From contig NZ_JAHCDA010000001.1 in assembly GCF_018413645.1 (NCBI RefSeq), positions 248,001-312,000 on the forward strand: a DNA stretch of 64,000 bases, read 5' to 3'. This stretch comes from Roseococcus pinisoli. Its GTDB lineage: Bacteria > Pseudomonadota > Alphaproteobacteria > Acetobacterales > Acetobacteraceae. Of the stretch, positions 2,287 to 56,427 are shown piece after piece. How positions within the stretch are numbered: position 1 is the first letter of the stretch; every line of letters begins with the position of its first letter. A program made the translations under genes and the position numbers. The notes under the pieces are model-generated. The model had not been told where the DNA came from, ran no database searches, and saw only the letters and a list, made by a program, of their open reading frames with translations.

Positions 2287-3915
2287 CTAGATCCAGAGCT
2301 TCCCGCGGATCGCGCGCACCAGGTCGCCAACCGCCCAGTACAGCCAGGTGCTTCTCCCCGCCTCGACGCGGGCGCTGCCCTCCGTGCCGGCGCGCAGCAT
2401 CGCCAGGTCGTTGCCCGGATCCAGCTCCACGATCGCGCGGACCACGTTGCGGCCCTGCACCACCTCGGTCGTGGGGCGTATCCGCTCGATGGTGGCCACG
2501 ATCCGCAGGCTCGGGTCGGAGGCCGGCAGCAGGCGGACGCGGGCGCCCACCTGAAGCCGCCGCGCATCCCGGTCCAGCACCAGCACATCGGCGCGCATCC
2601 GGTCCGTGGGCGCGACCTCGAACAGCACCTGGCCCCGCATCACGAACTGGCCGGCATAGCGACGCAGATCGCCCGAGACGACAACGCCGCTGAGGGGGGA
2701 ACGGATGCTGGCGGCGTCGATGCGGTGCTGCAGCAGCGCCACCTGCGTTTCCGCCCGCTCCGCCGAGAGCAGGGCCAGCTGCTCGTTGGCGGGGTTACCG
2801 CGCGCACGGGCGATATCGGCCTCGCGCCGGTCATTGGCCGCGCGGGACACCGCCGCCGCGTGCTCGAGCTGCAGATCGCGGGTGGAAAGCCGCGCCAGCA
2901 AGGTGGTGTCCGCCTCGACGCGGTCACCGGGCTCGACGGCCACCTCGTCGAGCAGCGCGTCGAAGGGCGCCGTCACGATCCGCTGCTCGGTGGGCGCCAG
3001 GATGAAGGGCGCATTGATCTCGTCGGTGGTCGGCCAGACGCCTGCCACGACCACCAGCAGCGCCAGGGCCGCCAACAGATGCCGCGTGCCGATGCCCTTC
3101 CGCCTGGCCCGGCGCTGCATGGCGGCGAGGGGCGCGAGGCCATCGGCGATGCGCGCCAGGAGGTCCTTCGGCGGCAGCGCGCCGTCGCTTTCCACCAGCA
3201 GGGCCATGGCCCCGGTCGCGACGCCCAATCGCGGGGCGGCCTTGCCCTCCGGCTCCGGCGTGGTCCCGGCATCCAGCAGGGCCTCGAGCTCGCCGCGCAG
3301 CCGCCGCGCGAGGTCGGAGGCCAGCGCGATCTCCTGCTGGTCGGAAACGCCGATGTCCCGGATGCGGCCGGAAGCTACCACGCCGATCGCGACGCGCCTG
3401 ACGCGGAGCAGGTCCGCCAGGCCCGTCGCGGCGCGGTGCAGCGCCACAGGGCGATTGGGGGCCCCGAGCGCCGCCGGAAGAACGGTGCCGAGCACGGCCG
3501 CCACGCCGGCGCGTGCCCCCGCCTCGGCCGCCGCGACGAATCCCGCCACCAGCTGCAGGCGCTCGCGCGTCAGCGCCGCGTGCAGGGGATTGGCGATGCG
3601 CAGCCGGATCAGCAGGGCGCCGCCGGCTGCCGGCAGCGCGAAGAGCGTGGGCTGGCCCGGCCCTTCCTCGACATGGCGGACGGCGCCGGCGGCCAGGGCC
3701 AGGGCGGCGGCCTTTTCCCAGGCCTCGGTAAGCGCAACGCCGGCCGCCGCGGGATGGGCCGCGAGCATCGTGCTGCCCAGCAGCACCGCGCCGGCCTCGG
3801 CATTGGTCAGGTCGGCGGCGAAGCGCAGCAGCACGGCCGGCCAGTCCGGACGGCCGGCGGCGGCCCGCAAATTGTCGAGGACAAGGGCGAGCTGGTCGGA
3901 GGGCTGCTGGTCCAT
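2287..3915 (-). CDS. HlyD-family membrane adaptor with a large cytoplasmic N-terminal domain
   Basis: A 542-aa protein in three parts. Residues 1-275 form a soluble alanine-rich domain, possibly GAF-like: alpha/beta pattern with AVLLGSTMLAAHP and LLRVRRVAIGVV. A basic stretch (RRARRKGIGTRH) is followed by a single membrane span at about 279-294, which places the first domain in the cytoplasm. The periplasmic remainder has the membrane-fusion-protein pattern: lipoyl half-motif LLDEVAVEPGDRVEADTTL, a short helical hairpin, then the second half SIRSPLSGVVVSGDL and a beta-barrel region. HlyD proteins normally bridge an inner-membrane transporter and TolC. The start ATG (3915) shares one base with the stop of the preceding adaptor gene. 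It is the last gene of the operon, and no ATPase follows. The cytoplasmic domain is the unusual part and could sense or recruit cargo; that is inference. Confidence 0.75.
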   Translation of the reverse strand: MDQQPSDQLALVLDNLRAAAGRPDWPAVLLRFAADLTNAEAGAVLLGSTMLAAHPAAAGVALTEAWEKAAALALAAGAVRHVEEGPGQPTLFALPAAGGALLIRLRIANPLHAALTRERLQLVAGFVAAAEAGARAGVAAVLGTVLPAALGAPNRPVALHRAATGLADLLRVRRVAIGVVASGRIRDIGVSDQQEIALASDLARRLRGELEALLDAGTTPEPEGKAAPRLGVATGAMALLVESDGALPPKDLLARIADGLAPLAAMQRRARRKGIGTRHLLAALALLVVVAGVWPTTDEINAPFILAPTEQRIVTAPFDALLDEVAVEPGDRVEADTTLLARLSTRDLQLEHAAAVSRAANDRREADIARARGNPANEQLALLSAERAETQVALLQHRIDAASIRSPLSGVVVSGDLRRYAGQFVMRGQVLFEVAPTDRMRADVLVLDRDARRLQVGARVRLLPASDPSLRIVATIERIRPTTEVVQGRNVVRAIVELDPGNDLAMLRAGTEGSARVEAGRSTWLYWAVGDLVRAIRGKLWI

Positions 3916-4748
3916 CAGCTTTCCTTGCGCAGCGCGGCCGGCGTCAGCATCGCTTCGACGCCGGCGGGAATCGCCTCGTCGGGATTCTCGATGACGAAGA
4001 CGGTGCGGAACCGGCCGGAGGCGGCATCCATGAGCAGGTCCAGAAAGCGCAGCGTGGCCCGCACCTCGCGGTCCACGGGCGCGAGCAGCCGCAGCTCGTA
4101 TTGCCGTCCTGTCCGGAGATAGGGAAAGGCGGCGGCGGGCATGTAGAGCGTCGCCTCCAGGGTGCGCAGATCCGCGATGGTGATCGGGCGGTCGCTTCGG
4201 CTGAGGGGCGAGCCGACGCCGGTGTCGATCTTGAACACGCGGCCGTCGAAGGGAGCGCGGATCTGGTACTGCTCGATCACCGAGAGCTCCACCTCCAGCC
4301 GCCGCCGGTCGAGCCGGCGCCGATCCTGCGCCACCTGGACCGCGGCACGGGCGACGGCAAGCCGGGCATTGGCCTGCCGCAGCTCCCATTCCATGGCACC
4401 GCCGCGTCCCACCGCGCTCGACACGCGGGAGGCCTGGGCCTGGGCCTCGGTGGCCTGGGCCTCGGCCTGGAGCACGTCACCCTCGGCTTCGGCGGCGCTG
4501 CGCGCCTGCGCGATGCGTTGGGATTGAACCGTATCGTCAAGCCGCAGGACGGGCTGACCTTCCCGCACCCGATCGCCCTCGGCCACCATGATCTCGCGGA
4601 CCGTGCCGTCGAGGAGCGGGCCGAGCTGGGCGATGTCCCGTGCCTTCGTGACGCCGCGGACGGCCTCGAAGCCCGGCGACGTCTGCGCGGAAGCGGCCGT
4701 GGCGGCGAAGGGCAAGGCCAGGAGTGAGCGTCGGAGCGGTGCAATCAC
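3915..4748 (-). CDS. HlyD/RND-type periplasmic adaptor subunit, exported
   Basis: About 277 aa from GTG at 4748. A Sec signal peptide is evident (basic PLRRS, hydrophobic LLALPF, then TAASA before QTSPG). The mature part shows a split lipoyl motif: LGPLLDGTVREIMVAEGDRVREGQPVLRLDD, then a long alanine/glutamine/arginine-rich coiled-coil hairpin, then IRAPFDGRVFKIDTGVGS, and a final barrel (IPAGVEAMLTPAAL). This is a short periplasmic adaptor that would contact the TolC-like protein encoded three genes upstream in transcription order. An alternative GTG at 4793 would overlap the upstream gene and push the signal sequence inward, so I prefer 4748, although neither start has a strong ribosome-binding site. 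It is the second adaptor of the operon. Confidence 0.75.
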   Translation of the reverse strand: MIAPLRRSLLALPFAATAASAQTSPGFEAVRGVTKARDIAQLGPLLDGTVREIMVAEGDRVREGQPVLRLDDTVQSQRIAQARSAAEAEGDVLQAEAQATEAQAQASRVSSAVGRGGAMEWELRQANARLAVARAAVQVAQDRRRLDRRRLEVELSVIEQYQIRAPFDGRVFKIDTGVGSPLSRSDRPITIADLRTLEATLYMPAAAFPYLRTGRQYELRLLAPVDREVRATLRFLDLLMDAASGRFRTVFVIENPDEAIPAGVEAMLTPAALRKES

Positions 4749-4764
4749 GGGGACTGAGATTCCA

Positions 4765-6885
4765 TCAAATGGCCAGGCGCCGGTGCAGGGCACGCTGCCC
4801 CGCCCGCCAGAGCTGCGTCACCAGCGGGCTGGGCGGCAGGGCGACGAGCGCCTGCACCCGGCTGCCGTGGAGCGCCGCGACGTCCGACTGGGCAAAGGCC
4901 CGCAATTCGAAAATCCGTTCGACCGGAACGGGTTGGCCCCGCGGCCCGGCCCGGGTGGCGATCGGCCCGCCGGCCTCCTGCGACAGTGCCGCGGAGGGCA
5001 GCTCGTCGCGCGCCTCGGGACGGGCGCTCGCCACCCGCGCCGTGAAGGTCGCCACGGTGCCTCCCCATTCGCGGATCGGCAGCTCGGTGCCGTCGGTCAC
5101 GGCGTTGAGCACGGAGGCGCCCGTTTGCTGATCGAGCACGAGGCGAATGACGGCCGGCGCCGCCAGCGGAACGAGCACGCCCAGCGGATCACGATCGTCG
5201 CGCCGGACCCATGCTCCGCGCAGCCCCAGCGCCTTGCTGGGCTCCCAGAAGGCCGGCTGTGCCGTGACGACCTGCCAGCGCGCGATCTCGGCGCGCAGCT
5301 CCTGCTGCTGGCGCCGGTTGGCGGCGTCGCGCGCCTCGATGCCGTCCAGCAGACCAGGATTTTCGACGGTGGCCCGGCGCCGCTCCAGGTCCAGCGTCCG
5401 GGCTTCCAGCTCGAGATGCTGGAGGGTGCGCAACGCGTCCGGATTGCGCAGCGTGATCAGCGTCTCCCCGGCCGCGAGCGGGCCCGCGGGCGCGACCTCC
5501 GTCACCATGCCGTCGACCCCTGCGAAGATCTGCCGGGCGCCTTCGCGCTCGAGCGTGCCGGCGACCACGATGCGATCCGGGATCGGAATGAGGCAGGCGG
5601 CCGCCCCGATCCCGAGCAGCAGCGTCGCGACGATGGTCGCCACGCACGGCTTCTCCCTCAGCGCGAGGCTCATCTGCACGGTCGGGATGACGACGAACAG
5701 CAGCAGGATCAGCAGGACGGCCCCGGCGCCCAGGACGAAGTGCAGGCCATAGGCGATCCAGATCACGCCCAAGTAGATGGTCCAGCGATAGAGCGAGGAC
5801 CCCACGAACCAGAGCGCCGGGCGCCAGCTTTGCCAGGCCTCGGCGGGTCCCTGCCCAAGCACACGGAGCGCGATGTCGCGGGCCGCGAGACGCCCCCGCT
5901 GCTGGAGATTGTGGATGCCCAGCAGGTCCGACATCACGTAGTAGCCGTCGAGCCGCACCAGCGGATTGGCGTTGAAGAGAAGCGACGAGACACCCACGAC
6001 GAGCACGGTCTGGAACAGGATCTCCCGCCCCCAGCCCGGCGCGGCATAGGCCCAGAGGATCGCCGCGATGGCCGCGATCAGCCCCTCGACATAGATGCCC
6101 GCCGCCCCCACCAGCGCCCGCCGCCAGGGCGAGGCGACCATCCACATCCCGCTCACATCGACGTAGGGCGCGGGCATCATGAACATCAGCGAGATGCCCG
6201 AGCGGAAGACATTGAGGCGCTCGCCCTCGGCGGCCGCCATCCGCTGCGCCGCGACAGCGTGTCCCGCCTCGTGGAGCACCTTGATCAGCGTGAAGACGAC
6301 GAAGGCCTGTACGGCGTCGAGCGCGCCGAATTCGGACAGGCCGCGCATGCTCTCGAGCACGTCGGGCGCGCGGATGAACCAGAGCGCGGTCGCCGTGCCG
6401 GCCAGCGCCAGCCAGATCATGAAGCCCCAGGACGTGAACAGCCAGCCGAGGGCAGGCCGGAACACGCCGAGCAGGCGGCCGAGATCACCCAGGTCGAACC
6501 GCTTGTAGGTCAGGCCGCGCAGGGCATGGAGCGGGCCGGACGGGGGCGGACGGGGCGGCAGCCTCCGCCCCGGCACGCGCAGCACGCCCTGGCTGATGAG
6601 ATTGGCGACCCCCTGCACGAGCTCGACATCCTGCGGGGCATCGGCCGCTGCCGCGGGCATCATGGCCACGGCCTCGGCCACGCTGCGCCGGCCGTCCAGG
6701 AGGCCGAGCAGCGCATAGAGGCGCGGATGGAGGCGCATGTAGCGCTCGGCCAGCGGGGCGCGCACGATCCAGGACGGCCTTCCGCCCAGCACGAGGCGGC
6801 GGGCGGCCATGTCCGGATTGACCACGGGGCAGAGCTCGGCGACCGATTCCGTACCCGGAAGCGGCGCTCCTGCAGCCGCGCTCAT
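4765..6885 (-). CDS. Site-2-protease-like (M50) membrane protein with PqqD-like N-terminus and HlyD-like C-terminus
   Basis: A 706-aa polytopic protein. Residues about 20-105 resemble a PqqD-type winged-helix peptide-recognition domain (RLHPRLYALLGLLDGRRSVAEAV). About 150-460 hold several membrane spans and the site-2 protease signature: HEAGH at 205-209 (HExxH) and NPLVRLDG at 307-314 (NPxxxxDG), so the zinc ligands look intact. The last span (about 445-462) is followed by a periplasmic HlyD-like region (QIFAGVDGMVTEVAPAGPLAAGETLITL, helical hairpin, beta segments). Proteins of this architecture are annotated as site-2 protease or HlyD-family secretion proteins and, as I recall, neighbour large repetitive surface proteins. 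Here it occupies the place an ABC exporter would have in a type I system. Proteolysis, channel formation or both are possible; the role is inferred. Confidence 0.8.
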   Translation of the reverse strand: MSAAAGAPLPGTESVAELCPVVNPDMAARRLVLGGRPSWIVRAPLAERYMRLHPRLYALLGLLDGRRSVAEAVAMMPAAAADAPQDVELVQGVANLISQGVLRVPGRRLPPRPPPSGPLHALRGLTYKRFDLGDLGRLLGVFRPALGWLFTSWGFMIWLALAGTATALWFIRAPDVLESMRGLSEFGALDAVQAFVVFTLIKVLHEAGHAVAAQRMAAAEGERLNVFRSGISLMFMMPAPYVDVSGMWMVASPWRRALVGAAGIYVEGLIAAIAAILWAYAAPGWGREILFQTVLVVGVSSLLFNANPLVRLDGYYVMSDLLGIHNLQQRGRLAARDIALRVLGQGPAEAWQSWRPALWFVGSSLYRWTIYLGVIWIAYGLHFVLGAGAVLLILLLFVVIPTVQMSLALREKPCVATIVATLLLGIGAAACLIPIPDRIVVAGTLEREGARQIFAGVDGMVTEVAPAGPLAAGETLITLRNPDALRTLQHLELEARTLDLERRRATVENPGLLDGIEARDAANRRQQQELRAEIARWQVVTAQPAFWEPSKALGLRGAWVRRDDRDPLGVLVPLAAPAVIRLVLDQQTGASVLNAVTDGTELPIREWGGTVATFTARVASARPEARDELPSAALSQEAGGPIATRAGPRGQPVPVERIFELRAFAQSDVAALHGSRVQALVALPPSPLVTQLWRAGQRALHRRLAI

Positions 6886-6972
6886 GTCGGCGTCATCCGG
6901 CCGGCGTCATCGCTCCAACGGCCGGTCAAGACACGGGCCCGCGGCATTCGGGGCAGCGGACCCGCGCTCATG

Positions 6973-7395
6973 TCAGAACACGAAGTCCACGTGCTGGCCG
7001 GCATCGCCCCGGCAATAGCCGGTGCCGCCGCCGTCGATGCGGCGGGCGGGGTTGAGGATGGCGAAGCGGCACTCCAGCGGCGCGCGCTCCGGCGACAGAA
7101 GCTGGCCCACGAGGAAGGCGCCGCGGGTCGGCGCCGCCAGCGAATCCGGCCCGCCGATGCCCGGCGGCGCGTCGGCCGGCGTCAGCTGGCCGGCATAGAC
7201 GGTGCCGTCCGCCAGGCGCACCTCGACCAGCGGCTGCTCGGCGCCGGGGGCGGTGATGCGGGCCGTGACGGCGCGTGCGGGGCTGGTCGGCGTCTGCACT
7301 TCGGCGCCGCTGATGGTGATCGTCCGCGGGGCGCAGGCTGCCAGGGTGCAGGTCAGCAGGGCGGCGGCGAGAAGTGACTTTCGATGGCGGGACAT
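6973..7395 (-). CDS. Small outer-membrane-type lipoprotein of the export operon
   Basis: A 140-aa protein starting at ATG 7395 (SRHRKSLLAAALLTCTLAAC). It has a typical lipoprotein signal peptide with lipobox LAAC at about residues 18-21. The mature part is short and beta-rich with no domain I recognise (VTARITAPGAEQPLVEVRLADGTVYAGQL, CRFAILNPARRIDGGGTGYCRGDAG), with two further cysteines that could form a disulfide. The residue after the lipid cysteine is Ala, so no inner-membrane retention signal is seen. It lies between the TolC-like gene and the site-2-protease-like gene on the same strand with short gaps, so I infer an accessory subunit of the same envelope machine. Confidence 0.6.
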   Translation of the reverse strand: MSRHRKSLLAAALLTCTLAACAPRTITISGAEVQTPTSPARAVTARITAPGAEQPLVEVRLADGTVYAGQLTPADAPPGIGGPDSLAAPTRGAFLVGQLLSPERAPLECRFAILNPARRIDGGGTGYCRGDAGQHVDFVF

Positions 7396-7424
7396 GTTGG
7401 CGCTCGACTGTTCGGGGAATGGGG

Positions 7425-9236
7425 TCAACGCGACGCCGGCTGGACGGCGCCAGCTCCGGGCCGCGGGGTCTCCGGCGCACCGCGGCGGGCGACGTAGGCC
7501 GGGCCGCGATTGGCGTCGTCGATGCGGCGTACGTCGATCTGCTCCAGGGCGGTGAAGGTTCCGGCCACGCGCTGAAGCTGCACGAAGGCCAGCGTATAGG
7601 CCGCCTGGGCGGTAGCGGCGGCTTCCTCGGCCGCGGTCAGGCGATCCTGGGATTGCAGCAGCCGCTCCAGCGCGTCCGCGCCGCCGGCGGGGAAGGTGCC
7701 TTCCTCGAAGCGCGTCCGCTGGACGCGGATATCCGCCTCCGCGGCCTGGACCGCCGCGGCGCGCGCGCCGACCTCACGATAGGCCACGCGGTACTCGTTC
7801 AGCGTGACCTCGGCCTCGGTCACGATGGTGGCCAGCACGGCGCGCGTCTGGCTTTCCGCCTGCCGCGTCTCGAGACGGCGCCGGCTGAGCCGGGCGCGCG
7901 CGTCGTCGCTGCCCAGCGGGACCTCGAACCGGAAGCCGAAGACGCCGCCGGGCGTGTCCGCTTCCCGGCGCGCATCCGTGAAGGCCTCTCCGAAGCGGCG
8001 ATCGCCGGCGCGGCCGCTCATATTGCCCTCGACGATGATGTCGAGGCGGGGCAGCGCCTCGATCTGCGCCTGGCCCTCACGCAGGACCGACGCGCGATGC
8101 TGCAGGAAGGCCTGCTGCACCTCGGGGCGATAGGCCACCGCGGTCACCATCACGCTCTCCAGGCGCTGCGCCTGGAAGTCGCGCAACGGCCGGTCCGTCG
8201 GCACCAGCTCGCCGAAGCGATCGCGCTCCAGGCGGGGATCGTTGACCAGGCCACGCAGCCGGGCCTCGGCGTTGCGCACGGCGGCGCGGGCGCGCAGCAC
8301 ATCGGCCTCGCGCGTGGTCACCGCGGCGCGGGCGCGGATGGTCTGGTCCAGGCCCGCATCGACGCCGCCACGCCCTTCCAGGCGGGAGACGAGCGACTGC
8401 GTCGCGCCGAGCAGCCTTTGCCGCTGCTGGTACTGCACCCGCGTCAGCCACAGCGTCCAATAGGCGCGCGCCACTTCGCTGAGATGCGATTCCATCTGCC
8501 GCCGGAACTCCGCCACGGCGGAGCGGGAATCGAGACGCGCGACCTCGTGCAGGCTGCGCGTGTAGTTGGTGCCCGATTCACGGAGCAGCGGCTGCACCAC
8601 GGTGATGAAGGTGCGCGAGCTGGCCTGGGCGCGCGGGTTGTAGAAGGTGCTGTTGGTCGAGAAGTTCGAGAAGCGCTGCCCGACCGTCACCTCGCCGCCG
8701 GTCTCCGCCCGCTGGCGCAGGCCGAATTCCACCACGCGCTCACGCTGGATGAGGCGCGCCGCACCGCCCGTCGTCGCCAGGCTCTGCGTCGGCTCGTTGA
8801 TATTGGCGTAGCGGCCTTCCGCGTAGAAACGCGGGATGAAGCGGCCGGCGACCTCGCGCTCAGTGGTCTCGCGGATGGCCGGCAGGTCGCCGAAGCTGCG
8901 CATCTGCTGCGAGTACAGCATGGCGCTGTCGTACATGAAGCCGAGGCCGATCGGCAGCGCGCGCTGGCCTTCTTCCGTGGGCGTGGTGGCGCCGCGCATC
9001 CACCAGGGCGCGAAGCGGACGGCGCGTTCGCGGTCGCGCGCCGAAGGCTCCTCCGTCGTGGACGGGCGATAAAGCCCGCGGATTTCACTGCCGACCTGCT
9101 CGCGAAAGCGAGCGTCGATCGTGTCCACGTTGACGATCGCGTTGTTCGAGCGGTCGGTGAACCAGCCCTGCGCCAGAACCTGTCCGGCGGAAAGCATGAT
9201 GGGAGCGGCCAACAGAGCGGTACGCAGGCAATTCAA
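7425..9236 (-). CDS. TolC-family outer-membrane efflux/secretion protein
   Basis: About 603 aa starting at TTG 9236, which follows a GGGGG stretch and opens a clear Sec signal peptide (CLRTALLAAPIMLSAGQVLAQ). The mature protein has the duplicated outer-membrane-factor pattern: long amphipathic helices rich in Ala, Arg and Glu (ARAAVTTREADVLRARAAVRNAEARLRGLV; TAAEEAAATAQAAYTLAFVQLQRVAGT) alternating with strand segments such as FGFRFEVPLGSDDARAR. The region before the first repeat (about 60-200) is longer than in classical TolC. The gene starts 34 bases after the stop of the giant protein gene and is followed by a lipoprotein and inner-membrane parts. It would supply the outer-membrane channel for this operon. 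TTG as start is inferred from the signal peptide position. Confidence 0.8.
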   Translation of the reverse strand: MNCLRTALLAAPIMLSAGQVLAQGWFTDRSNNAIVNVDTIDARFREQVGSEIRGLYRPSTTEEPSARDRERAVRFAPWWMRGATTPTEEGQRALPIGLGFMYDSAMLYSQQMRSFGDLPAIRETTEREVAGRFIPRFYAEGRYANINEPTQSLATTGGAARLIQRERVVEFGLRQRAETGGEVTVGQRFSNFSTNSTFYNPRAQASSRTFITVVQPLLRESGTNYTRSLHEVARLDSRSAVAEFRRQMESHLSEVARAYWTLWLTRVQYQQRQRLLGATQSLVSRLEGRGGVDAGLDQTIRARAAVTTREADVLRARAAVRNAEARLRGLVNDPRLERDRFGELVPTDRPLRDFQAQRLESVMVTAVAYRPEVQQAFLQHRASVLREGQAQIEALPRLDIIVEGNMSGRAGDRRFGEAFTDARREADTPGGVFGFRFEVPLGSDDARARLSRRRLETRQAESQTRAVLATIVTEAEVTLNEYRVAYREVGARAAAVQAAEADIRVQRTRFEEGTFPAGGADALERLLQSQDRLTAAEEAAATAQAAYTLAFVQLQRVAGTFTALEQIDVRRIDDANRGPAYVARRGAPETPRPGAGAVQPASR

Positions 9237-9270
9237 GGTCGTAACCCCCAGGATCGGATAGCGTTCGGCG

Positions 9271-12200
9271 TCATCGGCTCGTGCTCCCGGCCAAGGGGCC
9301 GCTGGAGAGAAGCTCGCCGGTGAAGCGATTGAAGGCGAAGGAGAACGGATGCGCCGCCGCCGCGGCATGGCCGCGCAGCATCCCGCCCGCCGTCGAGCCG
9401 GCGGCGCCGTCGACAAGCTTGACGAAGGCGCCGGGATTGCTGGTGTCGCCGAAGGCGACGCGGGTGTTGCCGGGCGCATCGCCCAGCGGGCCTGCGCCGT
9501 TTCGGGTGATCGAGACCTGCACGTCGAACGGACGGCCGTCGAGGTCGTCGCGGAGCGGAATCTCCTGCCGATCGCCCGTGGGCACCAGGCGTTGACCGAG
9601 ATCGCGGAACAGCCGCGTCGCCGACAGGTAGTCGTCGGTGTTCGGCAGATCGCCTGGGAAGCCGACGGTGCGCGGGAAGGCCGCGATCCAGTTGCCGCCC
9701 GCATCGGCCATGCGGCTGGTCGAGGCGATGATGCTGCCCTGCCAGTCCCGCAGGCTGATAACCAGCGTGCTGCCCGGATCTGCCGTGCCGCTATAGATCG
9801 GCTCCGACCGGTAGCCCCGGAAGAAGTTCGTCAGGCGGTCGTCCCAGCCGATGATGTCTTGCAGGCCGCCCGCCCGCGCGGCGGGCTGGCCGGCGGCCAC
9901 CAGGATCTCCTTCTGGTCGGCCGCCGCCATTCTGAGCTCGCCGCCCAGATCGCCACCCTGGGGCCTGCCCGGGAAGCTGTCGGCCGTGAAGCTGGCGGCA
10001 TTCGTCGCGCGGCCGTCATTCGGCACATTCGTGACCAGCGCCTTGTAGGTGACGGTCACGACCTGATGGAGCGCGAGCTCCGGCACGATGATGCGGATGC
10101 CGCCGCCGACATACTCCACCACGGCGCCGGAGACGCCTTCCACCACGACGCTGCCGGCGACGATCGACAGGAAGCCCGGCATCGCATCGTCCCGGATCAC
10201 GAGATCGTAGGCGCCGGCGCTGGAGGCATCGGTGTGGCGGATCCGCAGCGTGTAGCCGACCTCCTGTCCGATGATGGCGAAGGGTTTGTCGACGCTCTTG
10301 TCGATCGCGAGCGCGGGCGCCACGACATCGACGGCCGCCGAGACGGGCGGCAGGATCACGCCGGCATCGACCACCTCGAGCTGCGCGGAATTGGCCGGCT
10401 GCGCGCCCGGCGGCAGCGCCCCCGCATCCAGGCGCGCCCGAACCTCGATGACGATCTGATCCGCCGCGCCCTGCGGCGTGTTGTCGGCCCGCGTGACGAG
10501 CGTGCCGAAGCCGAAGACCACGATGCGGCCATTGAGGGTCCCGGCGTCACCGACGGCCAGGTTGCCGCCGCTGACGTTGCCGCCGATCGACACGATGCCG
10601 GAGGAAATATAGGTGAAGCCGGCCGGCAGCAGGTCCCGCAGGATCAGCGTGGTCGAGCCTTCCTGCAGCGTGATGGTCAGGCGCCAGGTCACGGTTTCGC
10701 CGGGCGACACGTCGGCCAGGTTCGGATCGAACTGGCCGTTGGTGGTACCGGGATTGTCCGTGTCGGCGACGACCTTCGTCAGCGTCGGCAGCTTGGTCGA
10801 GATGGAGACTTCGTTGCTGTCTTCCCCGCTGGTCGCGACGTTCGGGTTGGTCCCGCCCGCGCCCGGCCACCCGTCCGGATCGACCGTGGGGGCGCTGCCC
10901 CAGCTGACCGAAGCCTGATTGTCCACCGTCGTGCCGCTGGCCTGCAGCTCCGAGACGACGCCCGTGAAGGAAATGATGGCCACCTGGCCGACATCGAGCT
11001 GCGGGATGATCACGGTCACCGCGGTATCACCCGGGGCGCTGCCGCTGATGATCTGCACGCCCGCAACCGGCACGCCGTTCACCGTGACGACCACATTGCC
11101 GCCGGAGACCAGCTGCAGCAGCGGGTCGGTAACGACGACGTCGAAGGCGACGGCGTTCGAGTTGTTGGTGACGGTGAGCGTGTAGACGATCGCGTCATTG
11201 CCATCGACGGGACCCGTCGTGTCCGCCGCCTTGATGATGGTGAGCGTGGGCGTCACGATGTCGGAGACGACCGTGTCGACCTGGCTTCCCTCCTGGCCCG
11301 CCAGCTCGAAATCCAGGGTCGCCCCCTGGCTCAGCCCGCCCTCGCCGGCCTGCACATCGGCCCGCACGCGGCCGATCACCTCGATGACGATGCGGTCCCC
11401 CGCGCCCGGCAGGGCGTTGTCCTGCAGGCCGGTCACCGTGCCGAAATTGAAGCGCAGCACGCCGCCAACCATCACGCCCGCATCGCCGACGCCCAGGCCG
11501 ACGACGGTGAGATCGCTCCCGATGCTCACGATCCGCGAGGAGATCAGGTCCAGCAGCCCGCCGGCCATGTCGTCGCTGACGACGACGCCGTTCGTCGCGC
11601 CCTGGGGCAGGGTGATGACGATCTGGTAGCGCACCAGCTCACCCGGGCTCAGGTCGCGCAGGTTGGGGTTGTAGGCGATGCTGTCCGTGGGATCTCCGCC
11701 CGAGATCACGGAGCTTTCTTCCAGCGTCTTGTCGAGGCCGGGCACCAGCGGCACCTGCGTGCTGTCCTCGTCCGTGCCGGCCTCGCCGCCCTCGCCGGGA
11801 TTGCTGTCCCAGGAGAGCGTGGCCGTGTTGTGCAGCACAGCGGCGACCGGCGCATCGTCGGCAACCCGGACCTTGAACTTGATGACCACCGTCTCGCCGA
11901 GCTTCAGGCTGTCGAGCGAGATGCCGATCGTATTGTCGCCGGCATTGTTGCCCGCGGTGACGCTGCCCGCGGTGGTGGTCACGCTGCCCGGGATCAGGAT
12001 CAGCCAGGGCGCCGCATCGGCCAGCAGGTCCTGCACGAGGATGTCGTAGGCCGCGGCGGTCGAGGCGGCGGCGTGCGACAAAGTGAGGGTGAACTCGCCC
12101 TCCTGGCCAGGGCGGAGGAAGCCGGCCGGCCCTTCCTTCTGGATCGTCAGGACCGGCGAGACGACGACGATGTCCTGATTGTCGGTCACCGAACGGTCGT

Positions 12201-15200
12201 CATCCCCGTCCGGCGTCAGCACCGCCACATTGGCGAGCGGGTCCGCCGGCGCGTCGTCGCGCAGGCGGGTCACGATCTCGACGATGATCGTGCCGTGATC
12301 GGGATCGCCCGGATTGTGCACATAAGTGCCGAAATTGAAGGTGATCACGCTGCCGGTAATGGTGGGCGTGACGTTCGGACCCTTGACGATCCGGTAGGAA
12401 ACAAAGTCGAAGCCCACGGGGATGCTGTCCGTCAGCACCAGCTCCTGCGTGCCGTTGCCGACCGTCGCGGTAAGGCGATAGGTCACGCTCTCGCCGCGCG
12501 CGACGTCGTTGCCCGCCGTGTCCTCGTTGGAGGTGGCGATGATCTCCTTGGTGAGGGAGTTGACGGTAATGATGTCGACCGTCGCGTCGTCGTCGCCCGT
12601 GTAGTTGTTCCCGTTCGTCGGCGCGGTGTTGTAGTCGATACCCGCGGTGTTCACGACCTGATCGCCGTTCCGCAGCGAGCCCTGCAGGAGGACCTGGTAG
12701 GTCAGGACGATCGGGCCATCGTTCAGGCCGTAGACGCCCGGAAGGGTCAGGACGACCTGGCCGCCCTCCTCGCTCACGCTGCCGCGCGTCGTGGAGGCCG
12801 AGCCCGCTACGAGCACCGCGCCGGTCGGCAGCAGATCCTGCAGGATCGCGCCATAGGCCGCGGAGGTGGAGGTCGTGGCATGGTCGATCGTGACGGTGTA
12901 GGTCACCGTGTCGCCGGGTTTCGCGGTCGTGACGTCCGCGACCTTGTCGATGGTGAGCACGGGCGTCACCAGATCGATGACGGCGGTCGCATTGTCGGTC
13001 TCGAGTCCGGGCTGTCCCTCGCCTGGGCCGAAGGTCTGCACCTCGGCATCGTTGGCGTAGGTCGTGCCGGCGGCGACGTCCTTCGCCGCCGTCAACCGCG
13101 CCGTGATCAGGATGACGATCTCGTCCGACGCGTTGCGCACATTGTCGCCGGCGTTCACCACCGTGCCGAAGTCGAAGGTGATGGTCTGGCCGGAAGCGGA
13201 GCCGCTGGCCCCGATGCCGAGCACGCTGCCCGTGATGCCGCCGAGACTATCCACCGAGGAGGAGAGATAGGTCAGCCCGGGCGCCAGCATGTCGCTCACG
13301 ACCAGCCGCTGCGTGCCCTCGCCGAGGCTGATCACGAGACGGTAGGTGACCGTCTCGCCGGCCGCGACATCGGGGTTCAGCGGGTCGAAGGCGTCGCTGC
13401 CCGTCTCGTCGAGGGAGGTGCTGACAACGGTCTTCGTGATGGTCGGCGTCAGCGCGACGAGATGCGTTTCCGAATCGCTGAGCTGCGGTGCCCCGCGGTC
13501 ATCAGGCCCATCCCCCGCGAGACTGTCGTAGTCGAGGGTGGCCGTATTGGTCAGCGACTGGCCCGGCGTCACGCTGTCGAGAAGGACGGCGCGATAGACG
13601 ATGGTGATGGGCGCATCGCCCAGCAGCAGCTTGGGCAGCGTCAGCGTCACGACGCCGCCCACATGGGAAATCGTGCCGACCGAGGAGGTCAGGCTGCCAT
13701 CCACGAGCTGCATGCCGGCGGGCAGCACGTCGCTCAGGTTGAGGTCGTAGGCTGGGCCGCTATTCGCGTCCGCATGGCTGATCGTGATCGTGTAGGAGAT
13801 GGCCGCGCCGGCATCGAGCGGCTCGCCCTCCGTCACCGAGGAGGTCTTCTCGATCACCAGCCGGGGCTCGACGACCTCGGCGCTCACGCTCGCGCGGTCG
13901 GTCTCGACGCCGTTGACCGATACCGCGCCGGTATTGGTCAGCACCTGGCCGCCGACATTGGCCACATGATCCACCACCCGCGCCTTCAGGCGGATGACGA
14001 TCTGGTCCTCCTGTCCGACGACCTGGTTGTCGGAGGTGTTGCGGACATGGCCGAAGCTGATGAGGACAGAATCGAGATTGCCGTTGCTTCCGGTGTCGGT
14101 GACCGTAACGCCCGGGTTCAGAAGATTTTGCCCGTTCACGCCGATCAGGCTGCCGCCGATGCCCACGCGGATGACCTCGAGCGAGCCGGCCACGTATTCC
14201 AGGCGGCCGCCCTGGCCGGCCAGGTTGGCGTCCGGCAGCAGGTCGAGCAGCGAGAGGTTGAGGCTGTCGCCCTCCGGCAGGGTGATGACGAGCTCGTAGG
14301 TAACCTCCTCGCCGATCGACAGGTCGTCCAGCGTCGGGTCGTAGAGGTCCTTGTCCGTGTCCGGGTTGGAGGTGACGACGATGGTCTTGGAGAGGGTGGG
14401 CGTAAGGACCGTCACCAGGGCGTCGTCATGGCCGCTGTACTGCCGCTCGTCGGGCGAGCTGCCGGGCAGGCTGTTGCCGGTGTAGTTCGCCGTGTTCGGG
14501 ATGGAGGCACCGGCCTCGGCCGTCGCCACCAGCCGTGCCTTGAAGGTGATGGTCAGGGTCTCGCCCACCGCCAGCTGGGCGAGGGTCACCCGGATGCTGG
14601 TGTCGCCGACCGTGTTGCCCGTCACGACGGAGGCCACCGCCCCGGACACCACCACGGAGCCCGCCAGGAAGGTCGCGTTGGGCGGCAGCTGGGCGAGGCT
14701 GTCCAGGACCTCGAGATCGAAGGCCGTGGTGGCGTGGCCTCCGGCGCCGTCGTTCTTCAGCGTGATGGTGTAGGTGAGCTCCTCATTGGCGCCTGCCCGC
14801 TCGGGCGTCACCGTCTTGGTGAGCGTCAGATCCGGCTCGACGATCTCCACGGAAGCGGAATCGGACCAGGTCACCCGCGGGCCGCCATTGGGGTCGTCGA
14901 TGCTGAGCGTGGCGTTGTTGGTCAGCACCTCGCCGCTCTTATTGGCCGCCACATCCAGCACGCGCGCGACGATCTCGATCACCACGCGGTCATTCGCGTT
15001 GACGATATTGTCCCAGGCGTTCGTCACGTCGCCGAAGTCGAAGGTGATCGTGTCCCAGACGCCGTCGCCGTCCCGGTCGGCCAACGTGCCCGTCTGGCCC
15101 ACGGCGAGTCCTGCCCCACCACTGAGGTTGCCGCCGACGCTGATGATCCGCGCCGAGACGTAGCCCAGGAGGCCGTCGCTACCGGCCGGCAGCAGGTCCT

Positions 15201-18174
15201 CCAGCCGCACATTGCCCGCCTTCCCTTCAGGGAAGGTCACGGTGACGTGGTAGGTCACCATCTCGCCGATGGCGAGGTCCGTCACGTCGGGATTGCCGGC
15301 GCCCGTGCCGGTGAAGTCGTGGCTCGTCTCGAAGACGATCTTCTCGAGGCTCGGCGCCGCGGTGATGACGCGCGCGCTGTCCGAGGCATCCTGCGCCGAG
15401 ATGGTCTCGATGCGGTCGTTGCCGCCCTCCACCGCCGCGAAGGAGACGATGCGGGCGGTGTTGTCGAGCTGCGCGTTCGGCACCGACACGTCGTCCGCCA
15501 GGACCAGGTCGTAGGTGACGATGACGATGTTGCCGCCATTGCCGGCATTGTAGGTCCCGATGGCGCCGTGGCCCGGAGGGTCGATCAGCTTGATGCCGCC
15601 ATTGGGATCGAACAGGCCCCCGCCCACGATCTCGTAGTTCAGGACATTGCCGGCACCGTCGGTGATCCTGAGGTTCAGCCCGCCGGCCGGAATCTCGAAG
15701 CCCGACGGGAAGGTGTCCCGAAGCAGGACGTCGAAGGCGCCATAGGGGCCCGAGCCCTTGTTCTCGACGGTGAGCGCGAAGGTGACGAGGTCGCCGGCAT
15801 CGACGCCCGCCAGGTTCGCGTCGATGGCGCCGCCCGCCAGCGCATCGCTGCTGATGACGCCCGTGAAGCGGGGGCCGGAGGAGCCGGGCGCATTGAACTC
15901 GACAGGGCCGTTGGAGCCGGAGAAGGTGCCGTCGCCCGTCGTGGCGACCACGCCCTTGGTGATGGATAGCACGGGCTCGCCGAGAACGATCTGGCTCACG
16001 GCCGAGTGAACCGTGACGAGGTTGTCCGTCGAGGTCTCCTCGGTGGTCACCATGTTCGTCAGGAACAGGCCGTCGCCGAAGGGGGTGTCCTTCACGCGCA
16101 CGGTGAAGAGGATCACCAGCTTGGTGTTCTCGTTGTGGTTGCCCAGATCCCCGAAGTCGAAGATCAGCGAGTTCGCCGCGGCATTCCCGGAGATCGAGGG
16201 AGTGGCCCCGGTGATGCCGCTGAAAGTATCGCCCATTCCGAACCAGGCCAGGCCGACACCGGGGGCGGCGCCATTGATCGCGTCCACGAAGACCAGCGTG
16301 TCGCCCGACACCCCGTCCCCGTTCACGTCCATCGCGCCGAAGATCGGCAGCGGCAGGAAGTCGATGATCCGCAGCCCGTGGGCGCGGGTCAGCGGCAGGT
16401 CGACCTCCAGGCGATAGGTCACGCTGTCGCCGGTCTGGATCGGACCTATCGGGCCGCCGACCACGTTCCCGTTGACCGCATAGACCGTCTTGGACACGGT
16501 CGCGACGGGCAGCGTGACCCCGGCCCCTGAATCGTCGGTCACGATATGGCCGGTGCCGAGGACCTCGCCGCTCACCGTCACGTCATTGCCGATCACGTCG
16601 CCTTCCACGACGTGGTTGGCCCGTTCCTGCTGGACGTAGTTCTCCTCGATCACGCTGCGGAAGGTGATCCGCATCGTGGACTCCCCGGATTCCGACCCGG
16701 TGGTGGAATCGGAGCCTAGGGAGGATTCGAGACCCGCATCCCGAAGAACCTTCGAGACATCGACCTGTAGCGTGGTGATGCCGGTCGTGGCGTCCCGCGA
16801 GTAGGCATACTGGCCGGCCAGCAGCGCGCCGGTGAAGATCTGCACGCCATTCTCGACGATCACGATGGTCGGCGAGAAGCTGTCGAGGAAGCGCTGACCG
16901 TCGGAAAGGACGTCGGTCACGACGAGGTTGTCGATCGCGAAATAGTCCGAGACCTGCCCCTCGATCACCCATTCCAGCTGCGAGCCGGGCCCAGGGGTGC
17001 CGCCGCCGACCACGGTGACGGATTTCTGCAGCGCCACCGACTTGGCGTAGATGACGTTCTCGGGCCCCTCGGGGTCGATCGTGACATTCTCGGTGGGGTC
17101 GCGGGCGTCCAGCGGCGTCCAGGTGAAATCGAGGCGCGCATTGTTCTCGAGCGCCCGTGGCGCGCCCGTCACGGGATCGAGGACGGCCCCGCCCGAATGG
17201 TTCTCCGCGACATAGAAGTCGATCCGAAGCCCAGGCATCGTGCCGCCGCCAACCACGGCCCCGTCGATGACCGCGGTGATGACATTGCCGTTCTGGGTGA
17301 CCGTGCCCGTGAAGCCGTTGAGGATTTCCCAACCCGTGACCACCACGCCGTCCGGCAGGGTGTCGGTCAGCACGAAGTCGGTGACGGTCTGCCCCGGGGC
17401 CAGCTTCGGCGTGATCGTCCAGCTATGCGGATAGGAAGGCCCGGTGGCCGTCTCCTGCTCCGGCCCGTCATAGATCTTGGTCAGGCTGGCGATGATGGGG
17501 TTGATGTCGAAGCCCGTCGTCGGGCCAAGAATGGGATGGTCGGTGGTCGGGTTGTTGAGGGGGTCGCCACCGAAGGCGAAGCCGCCCTGCGCCTGGATGT
17601 TCAGCGGCACGCCGCGGTCGGCCAGGTTGGAGAGGCCGAGCTCGAGGACGATGTCGGCCGGCGTCTGATCGCCCGTGAAGCTGCCGAAGGGCAGCGTCAG
17701 CACCACCAGCGTGGAGCCAGGCGTGCCCGTGAGGATCCGCGCGTTGCCGTTCTGGTCCTTCGCGAAAGGGTGCACCGCCTGGCCGTTCGCGTCGAACTCG
17801 ATCTGCGTGGCCTGCAGCTGCAGGCCCAGATAGGTCGCCCCCTGGAAGGTGACGCCGTCATCGCCGTCCGGCCCCACACCGGCACCGTCGGCGCCGTTGG
17901 TCGGCAGGATGATGTCGATATACGGGGCGTAGCCCACCCCGTCGCCCGGGCCGTCCGGCACATTGTCGAACCGGAGGGTGACATGCGTCGTGTCACCGAT
18001 CAGCACGTCCTCGGAGCCGTTCGAGATCGTGGCGCCATCCTCGGCGATCACCGTCACGATCGGCTGGGCGGCCAGGAGGATGCGTTCCTCCAGGAGTTCG
18101 AAGACCGGCTGGCGGGGGGAAGCGGCCGACGCCGGATTCCAGAGCGAAGCGGAACGCACAAGAAAGTTGAGCAT
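9271..18174 (-). CDS. Giant LEPR-XLL-type surface/adhesin protein with repeated DUF11-like modules
   Basis: About 2,967 aa from ATG 18174, chosen because GGGGAAG lies just upstream; an in-frame ATG at 18195 lacks such a site. Near the N-terminus (residues 28-36) is LEERILLAA, a close match to the LEPR-XLL motif known at the start of very large repetitive exported proteins. No conventional Sec signal peptide is visible. Residues about 40-940 contain divergent all-beta domains. About 940-2740 hold twelve modules of about 150 aa in an alternating A-B pattern, resembling DUF11/isopeptide-forming fimbrial repeats. Near 2795-2840 is a bacterial Ig-like segment (SGTADPGSTLVISLRD...DAGGNWIAAFP). I found no cysteine and no RTX nonapeptides. 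It heads a six-gene operon encoding TolC-like, adaptor and site-2-protease-like proteins, which I infer export it. The likely role is adhesion, biofilm or cell-surface layer. Confidence 0.85.
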   Translation of the reverse strand: MLNFLVRSASLWNPASAASPRQPVFELLEERILLAAQPIVTVIAEDGATISNGSEDVLIGDTTHVTLRFDNVPDGPGDGVGYAPYIDIILPTNGADGAGVGPDGDDGVTFQGATYLGLQLQATQIEFDANGQAVHPFAKDQNGNARILTGTPGSTLVVLTLPFGSFTGDQTPADIVLELGLSNLADRGVPLNIQAQGGFAFGGDPLNNPTTDHPILGPTTGFDINPIIASLTKIYDGPEQETATGPSYPHSWTITPKLAPGQTVTDFVLTDTLPDGVVVTGWEILNGFTGTVTQNGNVITAVIDGAVVGGGTMPGLRIDFYVAENHSGGAVLDPVTGAPRALENNARLDFTWTPLDARDPTENVTIDPEGPENVIYAKSVALQKSVTVVGGGTPGPGSQLEWVIEGQVSDYFAIDNLVVTDVLSDGQRFLDSFSPTIVIVENGVQIFTGALLAGQYAYSRDATTGITTLQVDVSKVLRDAGLESSLGSDSTTGSESGESTMRITFRSVIEENYVQQERANHVVEGDVIGNDVTVSGEVLGTGHIVTDDSGAGVTLPVATVSKTVYAVNGNVVGGPIGPIQTGDSVTYRLEVDLPLTRAHGLRIIDFLPLPIFGAMDVNGDGVSGDTLVFVDAINGAAPGVGLAWFGMGDTFSGITGATPSISGNAAANSLIFDFGDLGNHNENTKLVILFTVRVKDTPFGDGLFLTNMVTTEETSTDNLVTVHSAVSQIVLGEPVLSITKGVVATTGDGTFSGSNGPVEFNAPGSSGPRFTGVISSDALAGGAIDANLAGVDAGDLVTFALTVENKGSGPYGAFDVLLRDTFPSGFEIPAGGLNLRITDGAGNVLNYEIVGGGLFDPNGGIKLIDPPGHGAIGTYNAGNGGNIVIVTYDLVLADDVSVPNAQLDNTARIVSFAAVEGGNDRIETISAQDASDSARVITAAPSLEKIVFETSHDFTGTGAGNPDVTDLAIGEMVTYHVTVTFPEGKAGNVRLEDLLPAGSDGLLGYVSARIISVGGNLSGGAGLAVGQTGTLADRDGDGVWDTITFDFGDVTNAWDNIVNANDRVVIEIVARVLDVAANKSGEVLTNNATLSIDDPNGGPRVTWSDSASVEIVEPDLTLTKTVTPERAGANEELTYTITLKNDGAGGHATTAFDLEVLDSLAQLPPNATFLAGSVVVSGAVASVVTGNTVGDTSIRVTLAQLAVGETLTITFKARLVATAEAGASIPNTANYTGNSLPGSSPDERQYSGHDDALVTVLTPTLSKTIVVTSNPDTDKDLYDPTLDDLSIGEEVTYELVITLPEGDSLNLSLLDLLPDANLAGQGGRLEYVAGSLEVIRVGIGGSLIGVNGQNLLNPGVTVTDTGSNGNLDSVLISFGHVRNTSDNQVVGQEDQIVIRLKARVVDHVANVGGQVLTNTGAVSVNGVETDRASVSAEVVEPRLVIEKTSSVTEGEPLDAGAAISYTITISHADANSGPAYDLNLSDVLPAGMQLVDGSLTSSVGTISHVGGVVTLTLPKLLLGDAPITIVYRAVLLDSVTPGQSLTNTATLDYDSLAGDGPDDRGAPQLSDSETHLVALTPTITKTVVSTSLDETGSDAFDPLNPDVAAGETVTYRLVISLGEGTQRLVVSDMLAPGLTYLSSSVDSLGGITGSVLGIGASGSASGQTITFDFGTVVNAGDNVRNASDEIVILITARLTAAKDVAAGTTYANDAEVQTFGPGEGQPGLETDNATAVIDLVTPVLTIDKVADVTTAKPGDTVTYTVTIDHATTSTSAAYGAILQDLLPTGAVLVAGSASTTRGSVSEEGGQVVLTLPGVYGLNDGPIVLTYQVLLQGSLRNGDQVVNTAGIDYNTAPTNGNNYTGDDDATVDIITVNSLTKEIIATSNEDTAGNDVARGESVTYRLTATVGNGTQELVLTDSIPVGFDFVSYRIVKGPNVTPTITGSVITFNFGTYVHNPGDPDHGTIIVEIVTRLRDDAPADPLANVAVLTPDGDDDRSVTDNQDIVVVSPVLTIQKEGPAGFLRPGQEGEFTLTLSHAAASTAAAYDILVQDLLADAAPWLILIPGSVTTTAGSVTAGNNAGDNTIGISLDSLKLGETVVIKFKVRVADDAPVAAVLHNTATLSWDSNPGEGGEAGTDEDSTQVPLVPGLDKTLEESSVISGGDPTDSIAYNPNLRDLSPGELVRYQIVITLPQGATNGVVVSDDMAGGLLDLISSRIVSIGSDLTVVGLGVGDAGVMVGGVLRFNFGTVTGLQDNALPGAGDRIVIEVIGRVRADVQAGEGGLSQGATLDFELAGQEGSQVDTVVSDIVTPTLTIIKAADTTGPVDGNDAIVYTLTVTNNSNAVAFDVVVTDPLLQLVSGGNVVVTVNGVPVAGVQIISGSAPGDTAVTVIIPQLDVGQVAIISFTGVVSELQASGTTVDNQASVSWGSAPTVDPDGWPGAGGTNPNVATSGEDSNEVSISTKLPTLTKVVADTDNPGTTNGQFDPNLADVSPGETVTWRLTITLQEGSTTLILRDLLPAGFTYISSGIVSIGGNVSGGNLAVGDAGTLNGRIVVFGFGTLVTRADNTPQGAADQIVIEVRARLDAGALPPGAQPANSAQLEVVDAGVILPPVSAAVDVVAPALAIDKSVDKPFAIIGQEVGYTLRIRHTDASSAGAYDLVIRDDAMPGFLSIVAGSVVVEGVSGAVVEYVGGGIRIIVPELALHQVVTVTYKALVTNVPNDGRATNAASFTADSFPGRPQGGDLGGELRMAAADQKEILVAAGQPAARAGGLQDIIGWDDRLTNFFRGYRSEPIYSGTADPGSTLVISLRDWQGSIIASTSRMADAGGNWIAAFPRTVGFPGDLPNTDDYLSATRLFRDLGQRLVPTGDRQEIPLRDDLDGRPFDVQVSITRNGAGPLGDAPGNTRVAFGDTSNPGAFVKLVDGAAGSTAGGMLRGHAAAAAHPFSFAFNRFTGELLSSGPLAGSTSR
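9960..15355 (-). repeat. Six alternating A-B protein repeat pairs inside the giant protein gene
   Basis: Twelve modules are readable in the translation. A-type modules start with PTLTK-like strands near 15352, 14402, 13446, 12563, 11742 and 10788. They carry GExVTYRL, LLPAG and IVIEVxAR patterns and an aspartate-rich early loop. B-type modules start with PxLTIxK near 14836, 13865, 12966, 12158, 11253 and 10320. They carry VTYTxTIxHxxAxS and LPxLxLGD patterns. The A-to-A spacing is 821-956 bases (mean about 913). Similarity is clear in protein but the DNA has diverged, so the duplication is old. Confidence 0.75.
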
Positions 18175-18673
18175 CACTTCCCCAAGAAGCTTCATGCCAA
18201 TGCATATTTATATAAGTATAATCAGAAGATTACATACGCCGCAACATTTTCAACCAATTGAATATATTGAGCAATTCATATAAGATGTTTTCATGTATGC
18301 GTTTTCCGCATGGAATTCAGCGAAGAATGAAAACTCCGCATGCCGTTCGCCGCAGCTCGGAAAATGCCTCCCCGGGGCCAGCTCGCTCCTGAACAACCAT
18401 GCGTTCCTGACCGTTAACTATTTGATAATATTGATTGTTTTCGATCACGATCCACAGGGCCTTCTTCCACGCGGGAACGATCCGGCCAAAAGGCTCCAGC
18501 AACGTAATGTTGCCGTCACATACCCACCTATACGTGAAGATTTCACGGAGGCAATGGTCGCTCGCAGCTTCTTTACAAGGCGCGCCCTGACGAATCCGCG
18601 AAGCCGCCGCCCTATGAATGAAGGGCCGCCGCCCCAAATCCGTGGGGCGCATCCCGCGCCCGAAAGCCTCGCC
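18175..18673. promoter_or_regulatory. Divergent, unusually AT-rich intergenic region upstream of the export operon
   Basis: About 500 bases between the giant protein gene (minus) and an exported protein gene (plus). Bases 18201-18300 contain only about 28% G+C by my count, against roughly 70% in surrounding genes; a second AT-rich patch lies at 18415-18450. On the minus strand TTGAAA (around 18250-18255) and several TATA-like hexamers (TATACT, TATAAA at about 18205-18222) are possible promoter elements, but none can be assigned with certainty. Reading frames crossing it have no coding character. It likely holds both promoters and possibly a binding region for a nucleoid-associated silencer. 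Confidence 0.55.
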
Positions 18674-19285: not shown

Positions 19286-19503
19286 CCGCGTCGCGGCCGT
19301 CCACCTGCCCTCACGAAGCGGGTGGACGGCACCTCCGGTCTTCGTCATCCTGTCGCGCCCTGCGCTCGGCGGGTCCGGCCCGTCTCGCCGCCGCGGCATC
19401 GAACGATGGTCGGAGATTGCTAAGGATGGCTCGTCACGGACGCAGCGCCGCCCGCCCCCATGAGTGACCCGGCGCACCGCGCTCGGACCGGTGGGCCCGC
19501 GGC

Positions 19504-51640: not shown

Positions 51641-54558
<2,918 letters not shown>

Positions 54559-54562
<4 letters not shown>

Positions 54563-56312: not shown

Positions 56313-56427
56313 GCGGGATGCACAGGCAGGGGCCTACATGCGCTGGGATCGCGCCGGAGGCAAGGCGTTTCGGGGCGGAATCCCCGCCCCGGGGCGACGC
56401 CTGCCGGAGAAGCGGGCGGCCCGCGCC

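Follow-up and report, generated by a model that had tools for sequence, protein, structure and literature searches.

Type I secretion systems (HlyB/HlyD/TolC, LapBCE) join a TolC channel and HlyD-type adaptors to giant repeat cargo that carries no Sec signal. The gene cluster described here resembles them in these features. However, it has no ABC transporter gene, and it adds a putative recognition element at the N terminus of the cargo, a PqqD-M50-HlyD fusion protein and, in many relatives, a SecA paralogue. The combination of a PqqD-like with an S2P-like domain is also found in the intramembrane proteases of daptide and other RiPP pathways (NF041824 and YydH/LiaK, NF058609), which makes leader-directed processing the natural reading of the fusion. 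In contrast to these proteases, the cluster fusion has a C-terminal HlyD extension, is accompanied by giant cargoes, and scores 102 bits against the NF041824 cut-off of 300 bits. The accessory Sec system (SecA2) devotes a second SecA to large surface proteins. Similarly, in many relatives of the cluster a second SecA is encoded beside a large surface-type cargo; the differences are the Gram-negative setting, the shortened SecA paralogue, the HlyD/TolC partners, and the lack of the paralogue in the genome studied here.

The LEPR-XLL domain (NF012209, “LEPR-8K”) is a motif at the N terminus of giant proteins, as in the cluster. The model describes the tag only, and the FDAA/FDGA leaders of the cluster relatives escape it. 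The passages on LEPR-XLL found in open-access papers link it to no export machine. The SapCDEF system of Campylobacter exports the S-layer, with SapD as the ABC transporter. SapC-family proteins adjoin several relatives of the cluster (L074:12182-13036, PF07277, 1.2e-74; L229:3558-4355, annotated as SapC; those in L093 and L128 are recognized by eye only), whereas the cluster described here has no ABC transporter. The initial annotation considered the mechanism undescribed, and a search of open-access papers, which leaves most subscription papers and all preprints outside, likewise returned no description of such an export system.

Gene content of the cluster

The stretch of DNA analyzed here (the window) comprises 64,000 nucleotides, G000:C1:248001-312000, of a 4.79-Mb genome. 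The cluster and its divergent neighbor contain the following features, in window coordinates.

9271..18174, minus strand: giant cargo protein, 2,967 aa from ATG 18174; the alternative ATG 18195 gives 2,974 aa
18067..18093, minus strand: LEPR-type leader core LEERILLAA of the giant, residues 35-43 counted from ATG 18195
7425..9236, minus strand: TolC-type outer-membrane channel, TTG start, 603 aa; OEP (PF02321), 1.2e-18
6973..7395, minus strand: small lipoprotein with the lipobox LAAC
4765..6885, minus strand: fusion of PqqD-like, S2P-like (M50) and HlyD-like parts, 706 aa
6259..6273, minus strand: HExxH zinc motif HEAGH of the fusion, residues 205-209; H205, E206 and H209 the same in every sequence of two alignments (18 and 43 sequences)
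5944..5973, minus strand: NANPLVRLDG (NPxxxxDG motif) of the fusion, residues 305-314; N305, P308, D313 and G314 invariant in the same alignments
3915..4748, minus strand: exported periplasmic adaptor of the HlyD/RND-MFP type, GTG start; TIGR01730, 2.4e-32, over the cut-off; HlyD_3
2287..3915, minus strand: HlyD adaptor with an N-terminal domain of about 270 residues; HlyD_3; one clear transmembrane segment at residues 275-293
19504-22683, plus strand: divergent AcrB-type RND pump, ACR_tran, 1.5e-187, separated from the giant gene by about 1.3 kb
22628-23881, plus strand: HlyD adaptor of that pump, part of the divergent neighbor 19504-23881

The six ORFs between 2287 and 18174 lie on the minus strand in an operon-like arrangement, either overlapping at their ends or separated by 16 to 87 bp, and read from 18174 downward as giant, TolC, lipoprotein, PqqD-M50-HlyD fusion, exported HlyD and membrane HlyD. 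Strand, order and spacing are thus as initially annotated, and the ORFs and their Pfam/NCBIfam families confirm them, as well as the absence of an ABC gene from the set (0 of 6 genes match an ABC family in Pfam/NCBIfam). The giant consists of DUF11/TIGR04226 and isopeptide-forming pilin-like repeats (Pfam/NCBIfam), with no Cys residue and no RTX nonapeptides. The lipoprotein has no family match in Pfam or NCBIfam; a counterpart ORF in the sibling cluster L005 is 41% identical over 123 aa. Hydropathy reveals no long transmembrane segment in the exported adaptor. Two relatives of the membrane HlyD adaptor match a GAF domain, which is not matched by the window copy. Elsewhere in the window, tandem glycine riboswitch aptamers (56074-56321, minus strand, 66.3 and 33.2 bits) lie on the same strand as the gene for the glycine cleavage P-protein (51641-54562).

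By itself, the window fusion protein stays below the family cut-offs, with 19.1 of 27.2 bits for PF02163 and 102.4 of 300 bits for NF041824, and at E ≤ 0.1 it matches M50 alone, neither PqqD nor HlyD_3. At the same threshold, the 43 aligned members of the family match M50 (PF02163) in all cases, HlyD_3 in 37 and PqqD (PF05402) in 32. A search of PDB sequences with the family profile returns, from the N to the C terminus, PqqD (3g2b, 5.8e-4, positions 15-103), an archaeal S2P (3b4r, 0.0035, positions 197-229) and many membrane-fusion proteins (positions about 445-636). Judged from these profile matches, the homology of the N-terminal part to PqqD is real, as the initial annotation had assumed. 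The zinc-site residues HExxH and NPxxxxDG, also recognized there, are retained throughout both alignments; together with the hydrophobic segments of the fusion they place it among M50/S2P proteins. A second, lower-scoring class of PqqD-M50-HlyD-like proteins occurs in the phylum of G390, with best E values mostly of 1e-104 to 1e-147 and without LEPR.

Leader-bearing giants and their linkage to the fusion gene

The leader of the window giant is a borderline match to NF012209, with 18.8 bits (cut-off 17 bits) in a genome search, at window 18049-18105, and 12.6 bits on the protein. Our own leader profile (A3) gives it 3.7e-11, the window sequence being itself one of the 26 rows. These rows were chosen by the pattern LE-x-R, so that their invariance in the alignment is a selection artefact. 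The leader core is wider than the model, LE-x-R-x-x-[L/F]-[S/A/D]-[A/G], with LEPR-XLL as one form. There are 22 Pseudomonadota genomes with the fusion and no NF012209 match; the surroundings of a fusion gene were read in 18 of these, 6 of which have a large ORF with LE-x-R-x-x-FDAA/FDGA close by. A leader of the FDAA/FDGA type is also found in the second cluster of the sibling genome G014. The hybrid leaders LEPRMMFDGA (G063) and LEPRLLFDGA (G121) join both forms, which therefore represent a single motif. A definition of the leader by NF012209 only was rejected as too narrow.

At E ≤ 0.01, the 26-row profile detects a leader in 14 of the 22 NF012209-negative fusion genomes (6 of these 14 supplied rows) and in 1 of 23 fusion-less genomes, a control set taken from the head of the list in which two genomes were included for having LEPR matches. 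In 12 named genomes the giant runs off the fetched locus. A genome-wide search finds a leader at E ≤ 0.01 in 11 of them, on a frame of more than 3,000 aa in 9 of the 12; one of the 12 is the donor of a profile row. Annotation may hide the leader: in L229:1-3378 (NZ_CP123586.1, Alisedimentitalea scapharcae) the leader LEPRLLLAAD lies upstream of the RefSeq start, within the longer frame. The segment preceding the motif has a net positive charge in 20 of 22 leaders examined. The 15-residue hydropathy maximum within the first 70 residues of these 22 leaders is 0.55 to 1.7, and none has a strong hydrophobic stretch. As the core of a Sec signal is expected to be higher, by a threshold of our own judgment, simple hydropathy suggests that these leaders are non-Sec. 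In L153, a large repetitive protein (12871-19998; repeats of the LDGLxSTxLxxL type) beside the fusion gene has no leader motif at its listed start.

The initial annotation proposed co-occurrence across genomes as a check, and the association holds. Among the genome of the window and 40 relatives, the fusion is found in 3 of 41 genomes, and these also have the three best LEPR matches; in one of them the open frame of the giant spans 17,855 aa. Two close relatives (G008 and G001) have a marginal LEPR match over the cut-off and no fusion match. Among 349 Pseudomonadota, 91 genomes have the fusion (E ≤ 1e-15) and 82 have LEPR (E ≤ 0.05), with 69 having both, 13 LEPR only, 22 the fusion only and 245 neither (Fisher 9e-40). 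At stricter LEPR thresholds the fusion is present in 39 of 40 genomes (E ≤ 0.001; the exception is G251) and in 33 of 33 (E ≤ 1e-4; Fisher 3e-22). At most three fusion candidates were scored per genome, which makes the numbers of copies and of same-contig pairs minimum counts.

The genes are physically linked as well. Distances were counted on LEPR rows with E ≤ 0.0102. Of these 82 rows, 17 were dropped because their frames are shorter than 1,000 aa. The remaining 65 frames have a median of 4,412 aa and reach 19,427 aa. Among the matches listed, 33 of the 65 share a contig with a fusion gene, 30 of these 33 within 20 kb and 27 within 10 kb; the other 32 have no listed same-contig fusion and were not counted.

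The second sample consists of 145 genomes from the phylum to which G390 belongs (a Verrucomicrobiales bacterium, source of locus L065). It contains 31 genomes with the fusion (E ≤ 1e-30), 12 of them in a strong class (E < 1e-200), and 14 with LEPR (E ≤ 0.01). All 11 genomes that have both belong to the strong class, of which 11 of 12 thus have LEPR (Fisher 4e-13 for the strong class, 2e-6 for all 31). The mismatches are 3 of the 14 LEPR genomes, without the fusion, and 20 of the 31 fusion genomes, without LEPR, 19 of which represent the weaker class. LEPR giants in this sample have open frames of 18,984, 19,216 and 20,466 aa. In the control genomes, LEPR exceeds the cut-off in 1 of 14 (Deinobacterium chartae). 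Leader-bearing giants are therefore linked to the PqqD-M50-HlyD/HlyD/TolC set. The TolC profile is insensitive (27 ORFs in the locus maps), so that TolC missing from a map is no evidence. The initial annotation had named gene sets without LEPR-XLL proteins as speaking against its reading. Such sets do occur, with FDAA/FDGA leaders, but these are a variant of the same motif.

Several of these clusters are found in annotated genomes. Plasmid p2 of Azospirillum argentinense encodes a DUF4347 giant with the leader LEPRFMFDAA, followed by TolC, adaptor, HlyD and M50-HlyD, and a Kosakonia cowanii cluster has the leader LEPRMLFDGA. The p2 cluster has no adjacent SecA gene; locus L074, from Bradyrhizobium sp. 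DOA9, has the SecA paralogue. The E. coli plasmid NZ_CP081687.1 (L230 and L232) carries a giant with the leader LESRQLFDGA, TolC, adaptor, HlyD and M50-HlyD; the E. coli fusion gene is found in 24 of 5,426 genomes in a near-identity search, and 21 of its 25 places are on plasmids. A RefSeq plasmid of Alisedimentitalea scapharcae has the order giant, HlyD, peptidase M50, SecA. In G063 and G121 the giant, TolC, two HlyD and the fusion are all found together. In three gammaproteobacterial loci (L111:13108-16233, L131:13392-16403 and L086:18580-21462) a sensor-like membrane protein of about 1,000 aa adjoins the exporter genes; the likeness of these proteins was judged from the starts of their sequences.

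A SecA paralogue in many relatives

Of the 95 loci (the window included) whose fusion gene was usable, 41 encode a SecA paralogue at most 4 kb away from it. Most of these paralogues have about 630 to 760 aa. Many of the negative loci end shortly after the fusion gene. The paralogue in L116, with a DEID box outside the search pattern, was added by eye. In 31 of 40 loci measured, the distance to the fusion gene is 210 bp or less. All five paralogues searched against Pfam contain the SecA_DEAD, SecA_PP_bind and SecA P-loop domains. Among the 349 Pseudomonadota, with at most three SecA candidates scored per genome, the paralogue (E ≤ 1e-188) is found in 34 genomes, all of which have both the fusion and LEPR (E ≤ 0.05), and in none of the 258 fusion-less genomes (Fisher 6e-23). 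In this phylum it is separable from housekeeping SecA by the score and the end of the match; outside it the separation by score is imperfect, as a 980-aa frame in G388 that scores 668 bits is probably a housekeeping SecA. On B. subtilis SecA, the alignment of the paralogue profile stops near residue 610. Given the domain boundaries of SecA, the paralogue presumably lacks the helical wing and the two-helix finger. As the paralogue, which the initial annotation does not mention, lies beside the fusion in many relatives, a system without an ABC transporter need not be one without a motor.

The paralogue is not part of every such cluster, and that idea was rejected: it is found in none of the FDAA-class loci, and the only SecA that the profile detects in the window genome or in its sibling G014 is long and of the housekeeping type. 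In the window organism, therefore, either ordinary SecA or another energy source may serve. A midpoint-rooted tree was made from 95 fusion proteins. Thirteen of its rows, including the FDAA-type loci, group on a deep branch of their own that has no SecA (support 100). The window protein and its sibling sit on a long branch beside mostly SecA-bearing rows (36 of 50), with a support of 94, under the 95 mark.

Proposed function and alternatives

The explanation that we favor, with a probability of roughly 60%, is that the genes build a trans-envelope exporter dedicated to one giant surface protein. The giant would be made with a short, non-Sec N-terminal leader with the core LE-x-R-x-x-[L/F]-[S/A/D]-[A/G]. 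The fusion would bind this leader through its PqqD-like domain, presumed to be cytosolic, in the way that PqqD/RRE domains bind RiPP leaders, and would clip it at the membrane with its S2P-like zinc site. TolC and three HlyD-type subunits (the periplasmic one, the one in the inner membrane and the one at the C terminus of the fusion) might form the conduit to the surface. The push might come from a SecA-type ATPase. In many relatives this would be the dedicated truncated paralogue, whereas the organism of the window might use its ordinary SecA. Export, leader binding, cleavage, motor and topology are all predicted from domain homologies and gene neighborhoods, as is the whole SecA step for the window.

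The description of the system as “ABC-free” in the initial annotation is correct for the cluster, which has no ABC gene, but not for the genome, where an unlinked PrtD-type T1SS ABC transporter is encoded on another contig (G000:C5:1069146, 677.8 bits). This transporter might power the export, with HlyD and TolC borrowing it and the M50 fusion only processing the cargo. Such sharing would suit the 27 of 32 fusion-bearing genomes in which an LssB-type (18) or PrtD-type (19) ABC exceeds the cut-off, and a published Vibrio giant (PMC10868602) combines an LEPR-XLL N terminus with C-terminal RTX and serralysin domains. However, neither type exceeds the cut-off in 5 of the 32 genomes (G098, G059, G121, G063 and G337; the best LssB scores in G063, G121 and G337 are 294 to 351 bits versus a cut-off of 693). 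ABC ORFs recognized by sequence pattern are found in 9 of 99 mapped loci, never inside the same-strand run of the cluster; two lie directly beside the cluster in L146 and one just past TolC in G063, all on the opposite strand. RTX nonapeptides are present in only 1 of 11 leader-type cargoes with the C terminus in hand, a count in which two cargoes are shorter than 500 aa, two are seen as the C-terminal part only, and signals without RTX would go unseen. A borrowed ABC transporter appears improbable, although the unlinked PrtD-type one may still serve in the organism of the window. It is also improbable, if slightly less so, that the giant crosses the inner membrane in some other way and that the set acts later, the S2P domain cutting LEPR to release or fix the protein like sorting enzymes. 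The invariant zinc-protease residues would fit such a role, and S2P proteins are known as proteases; no S2P-like domain is known to act as a protein channel, which also weighs against the dedicated exporter. Against this stand the N-terminal position of the leader, its lack of a strong hydrophobic stretch and the reader-type PqqD-like domain, as well as the TolC and HlyD parts of the set and, in many relatives, its SecA-type motor.

The similarity to daptide pathways might be taken to mean that PqqD-M50 cuts a short RiPP-like peptide off the N terminus of the giant, to be exported by HlyD and TolC. Among curated models the daptide protease NF041824 is indeed the nearest, and all 43 fusion members match it at E ≤ 0.01. 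However, it covers only residues 38-402 of the window fusion, and the cargoes, mostly frames with lengths between 1,000 and 20,000 aa, share hardly anything but the leader, so that a peptide product is very unlikely. The notion that HlyD and TolC serve the divergent AcrB-type RND pump or another efflux system, with the giant as a chance neighbor, draws on the closeness of the pump and its HlyD adaptor to the giant gene. It is the least credible of these readings, and both of its parts were rejected: the pump brings its own adaptor, the listed stretches of four annotated plasmid clusters with HlyD, M50 and giant genes contain no RND pump gene, and leader-bearing giants are linked to the fusion gene across the phylum.

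A bolder version of the dedicated-exporter reading, which we regard as speculative, would make this a new secretion class, in which a SecA motor threads the giants not through SecYEG but through a ring of the S2P-like domains of the PqqD-M50-HlyD subunit, which would read and cut the leader and feed HlyD/TolC. If so, an intramembrane-protease fold would serve as leader peptidase and protein-conducting gate together, and the SecA-family motor would have lost the portion that acts on SecY.

As far as our searches reach, no description exists of how LEPR-tagged proteins, which range from thousands of residues to twenty thousand, are exported, and several parts of the putative exporter are currently annotated as efflux adaptors. 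The clusters are carried by culturable Azospirillum, Bradyrhizobium and Kosakonia and by a Rhodobacterales plasmid, and also by E. coli plasmids. The linkage found here ties the LEPR tag to a conserved and widespread machine, with a candidate motor in many of its relatives.
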